The position numbers and the translations under genes were made by a program. The notes beneath the pieces were generated by a model. That model was not told the DNA's origin, ran no database searches, and saw nothing but the letters and a program-made list of their open reading frames with translations. Shown here in pieces: positions 3,715 through 6,402 of a stretch of DNA of 21,279 bases (its first letter is position 1; each line of letters begins with the position of its first letter). Source of the DNA: a virus; the IMG/VR virus record IMGVR_UViG_3300032073_000320, positions 1 through 21,279 of that record; one strand, written 5' to 3'.

Positions 3715-4599
3715 ATGAAGATATTCGTATCTATTGCTTCGTTTATGGATCACCAACTTGAAGAGACGATTGATTCCTGTCTAGAGAATGCACACTTTAA
3801 AGACAGAATTAACATCGCAGTCTGCGATCAGTCAAAAAAGTTTAATCAAACTATACACGATAAAGTAAAGTATTATACATTTGTAGATTATAGATCAGCA
3901 AGAGGTCCTTGTTGGGCAAGACATCTGTTACAAACTATAATGCAAGATGAAGAATACTACTTACAAATAGATTCACATACTCTATTTGAAAAAGACTGGG
4001 ACGTTCATTTAGCAAATCATGTTGATAATCTAGGACATAATGCAATTATTTCTACATATCCTTTAGATCATGGCGATGATGAGTCTAAAAAAGATTGGAC
4101 TTGGACTTTAGTATTAGATAGAGATCAACTATTCGATAGATATACTTACTTCAATACACAACGAGGTGCTAATAAGTCTAAAACTATTCATAAAGGTTTT
4201 TTATTAGCAGGTGGATTTTTATTCTCTCATAGATCATTTGTAGAACAAGTTCCCTATGACCCTGTGTTTTACTTCACAGGAGAAGAACCTAGTCTCGCCC
4301 TAAGAGCATTTACACATAACTTTGATATCTATCATATACCCGATGTACCAGTAAGACATAATTACGTCAACGATGGTGAAAGACCATTACACTGGGAAAG
4401 AGATGAAGAATGGAAAAGATTACAGATCATATCAGAACATAGATTTTCTGATTTGATTAATGATGAGTTGCGTGGACCCTATGGTTTAGGATACCAGAGA
4501 TCGATATCAGACTACAGAAGATTCTGTGGTATTGATTATCCAAATCGTGCTATCGTTTCCGATATTGCGTTTGGCGATTCAACCCCTGGTACTTCTTAG
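3715..4599 (+). CDS. GT-A glycosyltransferase resembling the GlcNAc-transferase (GlcNAc/Skp1-type) family
   Basis: 294 aa and the only convincing protein gene on the plus strand. The N-terminus KIFVSIASFMDHQLEETIDS, then 'RSARGPCWARHLLQ' (60-73) and 'YYLQIDSHTLFEKDWDVHL' (81-99), match the pattern of the GlcNAc-transferase-like family in which the Asp-x-His (D86, H88) corresponds to the GT-A metal-binding DxD. A hydrophobic 'GFLLAGGFLFSHRSFVEQVPYDP' block and a 'F-TGEEPSLALRAF' acidic motif follow, as expected for the catalytic half. No signal peptide or membrane segment. Probable roles are modification of a virion protein or of host surface sugars. It is divergent from the tail-tube-like gene and its stop codon directly abuts the stop of the convergent 71-aa gene with no terminator between, so its transcript could run antisense into that gene. 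The inverted orientation suggests an acquired accessory gene. Confidence 0.85.
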   Translation: MKIFVSIASFMDHQLEETIDSCLENAHFKDRINIAVCDQSKKFNQTIHDKVKYYTFVDYRSARGPCWARHLLQTIMQDEEYYLQIDSHTLFEKDWDVHLANHVDNLGHNAIISTYPLDHGDDESKKDWTWTLVLDRDQLFDRYTYFNTQRGANKSKTIHKGFLLAGGFLFSHRSFVEQVPYDPVFYFTGEEPSLALRAFTHNFDIYHIPDVPVRHNYVNDGERPLHWERDEEWKRLQIISEHRFSDLINDELRGPYGLGYQRSISDYRRFCGIDYPNRAIVSDIAFGDSTPGTS

Positions 4600-4815
4600 T
4601 TACTTCTCGTTAACAAACTCATTGAGTTGTCTTGCAGTTACAATAACACTTTCAGTAGAAACGAACTGATCACCGTAAGGTTTTCTGTCGTTTGGAAAGT
4701 TGTTGTTGTGTTCTACAATCGCCTCGTTTGATCTATAGATATTTCCTTCTAATAGACCTTGTGCTTGATTGAGTAAGTCTGCTCGGATTTCAAATCCTGA
4801 TTTTGGTGTTGTCAT
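4600..4815 (-). CDS. Small conserved hypothetical protein downstream of the capsid gene
   Basis: 71 aa beginning MTTPKSGFEIRADLLNQAQG, mostly helical by composition, soluble, with no recognisable domain. I have the impression that short proteins with this start are common near gene 23 in marine T4-like phages, but I cannot name a function. The start is well supported by a strong ribosome-binding site (AGGAGG, 5 bases before the ATG). A late-like octamer TATAAACA lies at 4837-4844. The gene ends against the plus-strand glycosyltransferase stop with no spacer. Its location in the late region suggests a virion or assembly role, which is inference. Confidence 0.75.
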   Translation of the reverse strand: MTTPKSGFEIRADLLNQAQGLLEGNIYRSNEAIVEHNNNFPNDRKPYGDQFVSTESVIVTARQLNEFVNEK

Positions 4816-4836
4816 AATTCCTCCTGTGTGTATGTG

Positions 4837-4844
4837 TGTTTATA
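4837..4844 (-). promoter_or_regulatory. Possible late promoter (TATAAACA) for the 71-aa gene
   Basis: One mismatch to the T4 late octamer. Predicted start near 4831 would leave a leader of about 15 bases holding the AGGAGG ribosome-binding site. The gene needs its own promoter because the capsid gene upstream ends in an intrinsic terminator. Confidence is limited by the AT-rich background. Confidence 0.4.
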
Positions 4845-4874
4845 ACTAACCTTATATTTAGTGTATAAAAAAGG

Positions 4875-4904
4875 TTGACAATGACCCTCACTTTTTAGTA
4901 TACT
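4875..4904 (+). promoter_or_regulatory. Near-consensus sigma70 promoter for a plus-strand small RNA
   Basis: Perfect -35 TTGACA (4875-4880), an 18-base spacer, and -10 TATACT (4899-4904), five of six matches to TATAAT. The predicted start near 4910-4912 coincides with the 5' edge of a long stem in the RNA that follows. The absence of a TATAAATA element means it should be read by unmodified host RNA polymerase, so early in infection, unlike the late genes around it. No protein gene with a ribosome-binding site follows. Confidence 0.8.
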
Positions 4905-4908
4905 ATAT

Positions 4909-5049
4909 CTGTTAGTTCGAAATCGTAGTCTAATCAACTATCCTTCTAGAGAAGCGGCAAGACCAATTGATGATTGTGAGACCGAAGTTCGATAACAGAC
5001 CCCGACGGGAACTACTGAAGAGTATTGGATCGAAGTCGGGGTTGTTTTT
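4909..5049 (+). ncRNA. Putative structured small RNA of about 140 nt (family not recognised)
   Basis: The segment runs from the predicted start of a strong sigma70 promoter to the U-run of an intrinsic terminator. The 5' and 3' sides of the first 90 bases pair in register: CTGTTA (4909-4914) with TAACAG (4993-4998), then after a 2-base bulge TCGAA (4917-4921) with TTCGA (4988-4992), then an internal loop, then GTCTAATCA (4928-4936) with TGATT (4971-4975) plus AGAC (4979-4982) around a GTG bulge. The tip can form CTTC/GAAG around TAGA (4943-4954). The last third is the terminator stem. This looks like a long bulged rod followed by a terminator. It does not match tRNA, or the conserved bases I know of glutamine riboswitches. 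The rod with internal loops resembles 6S RNA only superficially. A 39-codon ORF (4970-5089) crosses it but has no ribosome-binding site. Role unknown: a trans-acting regulator of host or phage is possible. Confidence 0.65.
4999..5049 (+). terminator. Rho-independent terminator of the plus-strand small RNA
   Basis: ACCCCGAC (4999-5006) pairs with GTCGGGGT (5035-5042), 8 bp and GC-rich, followed by TGTTTTT. The 28-base loop can hold a nested TACT(GAAG)AGTA hairpin. It would also stop readthrough from the plus-strand glycosyltransferase gene upstream. Confidence 0.8.
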
Positions 5050-5058
5050 ATTTAAGAC

Positions 5059-5087
5059 AAAAAAAAGGACTCCGAAGAGTCCTTTTT
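5059..5087 (-). terminator. Rho-independent terminator of the major capsid gene (bidirectional in form)
   Basis: GGACTC (5067-5072) and GAGTCC (5077-5082) form a 6-bp stem. Read on the minus strand the loop is TTCG, a very stable tetraloop, and the stem is followed by eight T residues. A-T pairs (5062-5066 with 5083-5087) extend it to 11 bp. It begins 17 bases after the capsid stop codon. On the plus strand it has a five-T tail and could back up the small-RNA terminator. Confidence 0.9.
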
Positions 5088-5090
5088 AAT

Positions 5091-5103: not shown

Positions 5104-6402
5104 TTATAGAATGTTAGATACTGCTAACTTTCTGTAGTATTGGTTACTACCATCAGATGCTAATCCACTTGAAGGTGTATCACCAACAAAAGGATTACTT
5201 ACCATACCGTAACGAGTTTTGAAACCAATTTTCGGTTGGAAAGTGTTCTCGCCAACTGCACGAACCATTTGTAATGGAACGTAAGGACAATAGAACATAC
5301 CAGCATCATAAGGATTACTTCCTCTATAACCAACTGTCATGTAGTCTGATCCAGCATATGGGTCAACATACACTTTAATTCTACCGTTAAGAACACCAGC
5401 AAAAGTATTACCAGTATCATCAACGTTTAAGTTAGTTGATAGAGCAGGTGTGTAATCTAATACGCCTGCCATTGAAAGAGCAGATGCTACATCAGATGAA
5501 CATAGGATAAAGTTACCTTTTCCTCTACGTGTATCTTTTGCAATCTTGTTTGATTCTCTTTCGATTTGGAATAATAGTCCTTTGAATTTCTCAACTGACC
5601 ATCTTCCGTTAGCATCAACGTCTAAGTTGAAAGTACCTGCACTTGCTGTTGCCTGGGCGCCAGTTTGTGCTTGGTTGTTTACTTCTCTTACAACTTCTCT
5701 GTTGATTTCTGCTAAAATTTCAGCAGACAGAATGTTTGCTAATTCTGATTCAGCATCAAGACCATGAATTGCTTTTAAGTCTTGTGCTAACTCTAGTGAG
5801 TATTCCGCTTTGAGTGCTCTTGAAACTGCTGTTACAGTTGCTTTCTCGATTGTGAAAGACATAGATGCGAAATTATTTCCACTTCCTAATGTCTCTGCTG
5901 CCGCAGTATTCATACCAGTTGTAGTTGCGTTTTGATACGCACTTGAACCGGCAAATGGATCGCCTTCAGGGTCGGAATCTTTTCCGTCTGTATTAGCATC
6001 TGCCGCGGCACTATGACCAGTTCTTGGTTCATTAACGCCCATTGCTTCAGAGTTTGCTAATCTGCTACCTGATGGATAATCTTGATATCTTGCTTTCATG
6101 GCGAAGATAAGTCCTGTCGGACCAGTCATTGGTTGAACACCGCAAATGTCGTAAGCAACGAGATTTGGCATAGCACGTCTTACTAATGAGATCAATATTG
6201 GATCCCAGTTAGAAATAGCGGCCCCAGTAGAGTTTAAAGGTGCTGCCTCAGATAAACTTTGTCTATCTTCCGCAAGTGCTTTCTCTTGGTTTTCGAGAAT
6301 CACTGCTGTAACCGCTTTCTTGTAGTTATCACCGATCTCAGGAAGATCGTTGTGCTCTAGAATAGGCGACCACTTTTCTTGTAAATTTTCTGATTGAAAC
6401 AT
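5104..6402 (-). CDS. 23: Major capsid protein gp23
   Basis: 432 aa, shorter than T4 gp23 (521 aa). Hallmarks: N-terminal 'LQEKWSPILEHNDLPEIGDNYKKAV' pattern (7-31), as in T4 'LLNKWKPLLEGEGLPEI', then 'VRRAMPNLVAYDICGVQPMTGPTG' (74-97), a signature of the family. Residues 50-53 (L-S-E-A) match the gp21 cleavage rule (L/I)-x-E, so a propeptide of 52 residues and a mature chain of about 380 are predicted. The C-terminus PKIGFKTRYGMVSNPFV is also typical. Ribosome-binding site AAAGGAGA precedes the ATG. The gene is 17 bases from the scaffold gene, has no promoter of its own in that gap, and ends in a strong terminator. Confidence 0.97.
   Translation of the reverse strand: MFQSENLQEKWSPILEHNDLPEIGDNYKKAVTAVILENQEKALAEDRQSLSEAAPLNSTGAAISNWDPILISLVRRAMPNLVAYDICGVQPMTGPTGLIFAMKARYQDYPSGSRLANSEAMGVNEPRTGHSAAADANTDGKDSDPEGDPFAGSSAYQNATTTGMNTAAAETLGSGNNFASMSFTIEKATVTAVSRALKAEYSLELAQDLKAIHGLDAESELANILSAEILAEINREVVREVNNQAQTGAQATASAGTFNLDVDANGRWSVEKFKGLLFQIERESNKIAKDTRRGKGNFILCSSDVASALSMAGVLDYTPALSTNLNVDDTGNTFAGVLNGRIKVYVDPYAGSDYMTVGYRGSNPYDAGMFYCPYVPLQMVRAVGENTFQPKIGFKTRYGMVSNPFVGDTPSSGLASDGSNQYYRKLAVSNIL

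Follow-up and report, generated by a model that had tools for sequence, protein, structure and literature searches.

A covarying non-coding RNA family, patchily distributed in marine T4-like phages, with a predicted promoter-driven member behind gene 23

In T4, Pnk (PseT) and RNA ligase repair tRNA that has been cut by PrrC. More generally, host enzymes cut tRNA that phage Pnk and RNA ligase then mend, and T4 Pnk has an additional influence on mRNA decay (PMC3014915), while phage-encoded tRNAs have been proposed as a counter to host tRNases (PMC10264068). The small non-coding RNAs of T4-like phages have long been a puzzle: RNAC (139 nt) and RNAD (119 nt), small stable RNAs of the T4 tRNA region that are classed as late (PMC9697503), are without known role (PMC3014915, PMC9697503). 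The Methylophilales phage Melnitz carries a two-piece tmRNA with a glutamine riboswitch (PMC9004378).

The RNA described here shares features with each of these systems. Like RNAC and RNAD, it is a small structured non-coding RNA of similar length in a T4-like phage, and in three of its relatives (L281-L283) it has tRNA neighbours. Homology with the two T4 RNAs is nevertheless unsupported, as searches of T4 with our covariance models R1 and R2 (see below) gave no match and the sole likeness found was between the 5′ GAGAAACC hairpin of RNAD and the relative L247 (p ~0.03 before correction), a likeness that is absent for the window RNA and for L280. Like the Melnitz tmRNA, it is a structured RNA behind an early-type promoter in a related marine phage, but it has no tmRNA or tRNA features and no Rfam match, and Melnitz-2 contains no R2 match. 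Finally, its neighbour in many relatives is a PNKP-type 3′-phosphatase gene, which has T4 Pnk as a solved relative; in contrast to the T4 system, this gene encodes the phosphatase domain only, the RNA has no T4 counterpart and the link is positional.

The window, meaning the whole 21.3-kb stretch of DNA analysed, is a fragment of a T4-like marine myophage with gene 23, scaffold, protease, tail tube and UvsY-like genes (PHROGs), and the closest isolates by its capsid protein include Melnitz, Mosig and HTVC008M (62-64% identity). The RNA gene is on the plus strand, flanked by gene 23 and by a conserved 71-aa ORF (Table 1). The first-pass annotation had proposed, opposite the capsid operon and between gene 23 and its neighbour, a non-coding RNA transcribed from a TTGACA-18-TATACT promoter; the promoter is present, and homologues and covariation support a structured non-coding RNA at this place. 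No second strict sigma70 site of this type was found on either strand of the 21-kb window. The first helix of the RNA, P1, begins at G4911, 6 nt past the −10 element, and the predicted RNA start lies 6-7 nt past that element. In relatives L082-L085 the 18-nt spacer and the −10 element are retained, as they are ahead of other payloads, and no gene stands between promoter and RNA in the window, in L082-L085 or in L264, L266 and L267. The host-type promoter suggests early expression, since the Melnitz study classed predicted sigma70 promoters as early (PMC9004378), and action in trans is suggested by the lack of anything in the window that the RNA could regulate in cis. The RNA is probably expressed early and probably acts in trans.

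Table 1. Predicted elements of the RNA gene and the features that flank it in the window
Feature	Position	Strand	Remarks
Sigma70-type (early-type) promoter, TTGACA-18-TATACT	4875..4904	+	11/12 consensus matches
P1 outer helix, 5′ strand GUUA	4911..4914	+	pairs with 4993-4996; GUUA/UAAC becomes GGUA/UACC in L282
P1 inner helix, 5′ strand UCGAA	4917..4921	+	pairs with 4988-4992; UUGAA/UUCAA in L282, GUAAC/GUUAC in L281
H1 hairpin, GUAGUC-UAAUC-AACUAU	4925..4941	+	loop consensus about UNRUY
H2 hairpin, CUUC-UAGA-GAAG	4943..4954	+	CCCG-UAGA-CGGG in L280, CCGG-UAGA-CCGG in L282, CCAG-UAAA-CUGG in L281
H3 arm	4955..4984	+	CGG/CCG at 4955-4957/4982-4984; CAAU/AUUG at 4964-4967/4973-4976; conserved core GAUUGUGAG at 4972-4980
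P1 3′ strands, UUCGA and UAAC	4988..4996	+	preceded by conserved GAAG at 4984-4987
P2 hairpin, GACCCCGAC/GUCGGGGUU	4998..5043	+	contains P2a, UACU-GAAG-AGUA, at 5013-5024
U-run	5045..5052	+	makes P2 a likely intrinsic terminator in the window member
Conserved 71-aa ORF, one hotspot flank	4600..4815	-	late-type promoter-like ACTAAATA before the ORF, near 4855-4862 (-)
Gene 23 operon terminator, separate from that of the RNA	5062..5087	-	similar hairpin in relatives without the RNA
Gene 23, major capsid protein, other hotspot flank	5104..6402	-	phrog_138, E 1e-160

The RNA is ~135 nt long, with a structured part (4911-5043) followed by the U-run. Its conserved fold is a four-way junction, in which P1 closes H1, H2 and H3, plus the 3′ hairpin P2. 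A GU bulge at 4915-4916 separates the outer and inner helices of P1. Both of these helices (GTTA/TAAC and TCGAA/TTCGA) had been drawn in the first-pass annotation as parts of a bulged rod, and both are present and covary in relatives; the GC-rich hairpin and U-run that it placed at the 3′ end are present as well. Its third rod helix, GTCTAATCA/TGATT+AGAC, did not hold up. The two stretches concerned (4925-4941 and 4964-4976) fall in separate conserved hairpins, so that the helix is displaced by H1 and H3, and its pairing is weaker on the same alignment (double changes in 2/9 pairs). Three of its pairs would join the H1 loop to the H3 loop; these stay complementary in nearly all cases, and the two loops may form a tertiary contact. 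The H1 stem is rewritten as CCUGAU/AUCAGG in L282, GAGGGU/ACCCUC in L280 and CGAGGU/ACCUUG in the diverged relative A′, while H2 consists of four pairs that are capped, in the window and in the distant members, by a UAGA or UAAA tetraloop. In H3, the outer CGG/CCG of the window becomes CAA/UUG in L084, and the arm also has CUCA/UGAG in L282 and GUAC/GUAC in L281. The GUGAG..GAAG stretch between H3 and P1 is conserved. P2 reads CCCCGAC/GUCGGGG in the window, CCCCARU/AYUGGGG in A′, GAAUCCUC/GAGGAUUC in L281 and GGCGGAUCUU/AAGGUCCGCC in L282. The U-run is not a family-wide feature, as A′ members have none directly after P2. In one example, L084:782-955 (-), the RNA is extended by a ~150-nt 3′ domain that is closed by a long helix, CUAGAAUCAC/GUGAUUCUAG, and followed by a U-run; the complete 307-nt fold of L084 has a z-score of −3.6.

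Folded as a single sequence, the window RNA has no excess stability (z-scores of −0.68 over 143 nt and of +0.77 for the rod), and the case is therefore made by comparison; single-sequence z-scores of A′ and the distant members range from −2.8 to −3.9. Alignment A5, which is fitted to the model, shows double changes in 26/33 pairs, with 92.9% of cells paired; shuffling gives 73.3% (0/500) and sliding no more than 50%. Because of this fitting, the count was repeated on A6, a MAFFT alignment made from sequence only, where double changes occur in 16/22 pairs and 85.7% of cells are paired, compared with 64.4% in shuffles and at most 44% when slid. P1, H1, H2, H3 and P2 are all kept by compensatory changes. 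It is almost certain that the RNA is conserved, covarying and non-coding, with a promoter sequence and changing genome positions.

In total, the family comprises 16 distinct sequences from 26 marine phage contigs, near-identical phages among them. The RNA and its promoter occupy the same place in L085, L083, L082 and L084 (99, 97, 96 and 89% identity, L085 being a nearly identical phage), and a partial copy is present in L173/L097. A′ follows a phosphatase gene in L247 and L251. Scanning with a degenerate pattern drawn from window-type and A′ sequences, for which less than one chance match is expected by our estimate, located A′ in 17 contigs: in 14 it stands behind the phosphatase gene in the gene 23 hotspot, and in L264, L266 and L267 it stands alone at another genome place behind TTGACA-18-TATACT. 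For covariance model R1, eight A′ sequences were used and the window was left out; it recovers the window RNA with a score of 40.1 bits (E 7e-7 over 241 kb, a rough value, as for all covariance model E-values here), and its scores for the window and for L082, L083 and L084 lie at 40-49 bits. Conservation and covariation in relatives, which the first-pass annotation had made tests of its proposal, are borne out, and its tests by Rfam and by the 4970-5089 frame likewise come out in favour. R1 also finds L280 (72 bits), L281 (48), L282 (38) and L283 (36), all at other genome places. No additional members came up when model R2, built from all 16 sequences, was run against ~165 contigs and isolate records, among them T4, HTVC008M, Mosig, Melnitz-2 and several cyanophages. 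R1 or R2 matches below 20 bits in L284, HTVC008M (L299), S-H38 and S-SCSM1 were treated as noise; pattern matches in L088-L092 lie inside genes and are due to chance, as is the single match of a genome contig scan, in a Sulfurimonas gene. The members are all metagenomic, with none in the cultured phages searched, and blastn of the window RNA against 50,697 phage records gave no match. The collections were reached by patterns, so that members without the pattern words would escape, and sampling by capsid neighbours is biased towards the gene 23 hotspot. Judged by these searches, this is a genuine family that occurs patchily among marine T4-like phages and travels as a cassette. It was previously uncatalogued.

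The setting of the window copy is that of an insertion hotspot. In most relatives whose gene 23 is 80-89% identical, the spacer is short (~95-150 bp) and holds the gene 23 terminator together with a late-type promoter; the window spacer is ~185 bp longer, with the extra part flanked by two AAAAAAGG stretches, and the majority of relatives are without the RNA. A survey of the spacers of relatives shows the early-type promoter with different payloads, namely the R1/R2 RNA, an unrelated structured RNA (RNA B) or a PNKP-type phosphatase gene. By sequence, the RNA gene is a promoter-driven cassette in the hotspot behind gene 23, and the spacer appears to swap early cassettes, two unrelated structured RNAs among them.

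The coding and known-class readings were rejected. The frame at 4970-5089 is not kept as protein: changes in L083 and L084 are mostly non-synonymous, the end differs and A′ has no start codon in the alignments. An Rfam search of the window RNA returned no family, with 6S RNA, riboswitches and leaders, and known ribozymes included, in agreement with the earlier remark that it matched no recognised family. A riboswitch or mRNA leader is further disfavoured by the lack of a plus-strand gene ahead of the U-run and of the gene 23 terminator. ARAGORN found no tRNA or tmRNA gene in the window RNA, which likewise has no tRNA hallmarks and no loop that resembles an anticodon loop, and the tmRNA/tRNA reading was discarded. 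We consider it likely, taking identity and action jointly, that the RNA is a free-standing member of a structured non-coding RNA family that acts in trans.

What the RNA might do is suggested by its neighbours. The phosphatase gene matches Pfam HAD_PNKP (PF25109, 4e-27), the PHROG polynucleotide kinase (5e-35) and, in the PDB, T4 Pnk (1ltq, 1e-8), and the RNA follows its stop codon directly in 14 A′ contigs and in L281. At a locus far from gene 23, in G006, promoter, PNKP, RNA, tRNA-Glu(TTC) and tRNA-Asp(GTC) stand in line next to helicase-, UvsX- and DNA polymerase-like genes (names read from translations). tRNAs lie downstream of the RNA in L281-L283, the distance from RNA end to tRNA-Glu(TTC) being ~10 nt in L282 and ~14 nt in L283. 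The RNA therefore accompanies the phosphatase in two unrelated genome places and tRNA-Glu in two. Other settings differ: an NT5C gene precedes the RNA in L280, and in L266 the RNA stands alone with an alternative-oxidase gene on one side and a small ORF on the other. The partnership with PNKP is not obligatory, because PNKP cassettes without RNA and RNAs without PNKP nearby (the window, L264 and L280) both exist. PNKP-type phosphatase genes without the RNA were seen in L230, L231, L232, L242, L246 and L249, in the same hotspot and with the same promoter type.

From this neighbourhood, RNA metabolism is the most likely field of action. On the likely reading given above, host polymerase uses the promoter of the RNA gene to transcribe the ~135-nt RNA opposite the capsid operon, probably at an early stage of infection; the RNA folds into the four-way junction with its conserved GUGAG..GAAG core, followed by P2, which in the window phage would, with the U-run, also terminate the transcript. 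In the mechanism we tentatively favour, the RNA would be a stable structured player in a contest over RNA and tRNA integrity, bound or cut by a host tRNA or RNA nuclease as a decoy or spare substrate, or alternatively serving a phage RNA-repair enzyme. Such a decoy or repair-substrate role is favoured because relatives lie directly behind PNKP-type 3′-phosphatase genes and directly before tRNA-Glu, and, although only a possibility, it is the likeliest mechanism, above each rival. Against it stand the non-obligatory partnership with PNKP, the lack of tRNA hallmarks and of anticodon-like loops in the RNA, and the many relatives that do without it. A narrower version is somewhat more doubtful: here the RNA would be devoted to counter-defence, as a structured decoy for, or a repairable substrate of, a host tRNA or anticodon nuclease, and would be transmitted with the 3′-phosphatase and tRNA-Glu as an RNA-repair cassette. 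With its well-determined fold, its presence in several diverged marine phages at differing genome positions, and its recurrent RNA-repair and tRNA neighbours, the R1/R2 family offers a testable handle on the small RNAs of T4-like phages.

The same neighbours could point to an origin in cis, in which the RNA is a 3′ UTR structure that protects, processes or terminates the preceding mRNA (PNKP, NT5C) or matures the following tRNA, with stand-alone copies derived. The position behind PNKP stop codons and the NT5C gene, the tRNAs that follow, and the terminator-like end formed by P2 and the U-run in the window all fit this reading. Against it, no gene stands between promoter and RNA in the window, L082-L085 and L264/L266/L267, no single neighbour is common to all members, and a terminator or 3′ stabiliser needs no H1-H3 with conserved loops, nor is the U-run general. 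We consider a cis origin unlikely. Still less probable is regulation of mRNAs by base pairing through the conserved single-stranded core or loops of the small RNA; the unpaired stretches (the H1 loop and the core GAUUGUGAG) are indeed conserved in all members, but they are short and set within structured contexts, and so elaborate a fold would be unnecessary.

6S RNA uses a long rod with a central open bubble. The early-type promoter and the autonomous cassette, which like 6S is a small structured RNA, would suit a 6S-like or protein-titrating regulator that, soon after infection begins, binds the polymerase of the host or some other host regulator, and a promoter mimic had been among the first-pass suggestions. 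That idea loses its support together with the bulged rod: the conserved fold is a multi-branched junction plus a hairpin, with no long rod with central bubble and no Rfam 6S match, and we regard such a regulator as improbable, marginally more so than base pairing. Weakest is a self-cleaving or otherwise catalytic RNA, which would trim the transcript that contains it, as between the PNKP mRNA and tRNA-Glu: the conserved unpaired purine-rich core (GAGAAAC, GUGAG..GAAG), the compact four-way junction and the positions between co-transcribed units would be in keeping with it, but no Rfam ribozyme matches, trimming is unneeded in the window copy, which starts at its promoter, and the hammerhead-like CUGAAGA belongs to hairpin P2a and is missing in L282 and L283, which makes catalysis very improbable.

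Several further features of the hotspot and its flanks were seen. In the leader of the 71-aa ORF (window 4816-4850, minus strand), a CA-rich stretch, ACACACATACACACAGGAGG, ahead of AGGAGG is strikingly conserved in nearly all relatives. Between this ORF and the tail tube gene the window carries a glycosyltransferase gene (3715-4599, plus strand; phrog_24687), which looks like a further insertion because relatives L003, L004 and L006 have no gene there. L005 contains two tandem glutamine riboswitch aptamers (L005:4381-4495 (+); RF01739, 58 and 63 bits) with a small ORF downstream, inserted in the hotspot on the gene 23 strand, and similar-looking inserts occur in L136, L162, L121 and others. 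RNA B, the second structured RNA, is ~280 nt long, is unrelated to R1/R2 and has the same spacer, orientation and promoter type. It is present at L009:3425-3715 (-), where an Rfam search gave no match, and in L110, L114, L116, L107, L184, L185, L189 and L233, with further carriers in L236, L237, L240, L241, L252 and L253. In an alignment of 10 RNA B sequences, five pairs of the predicted fold show changes in both partners, such as GGUCA/UGACC to GGUGC/GCACC.
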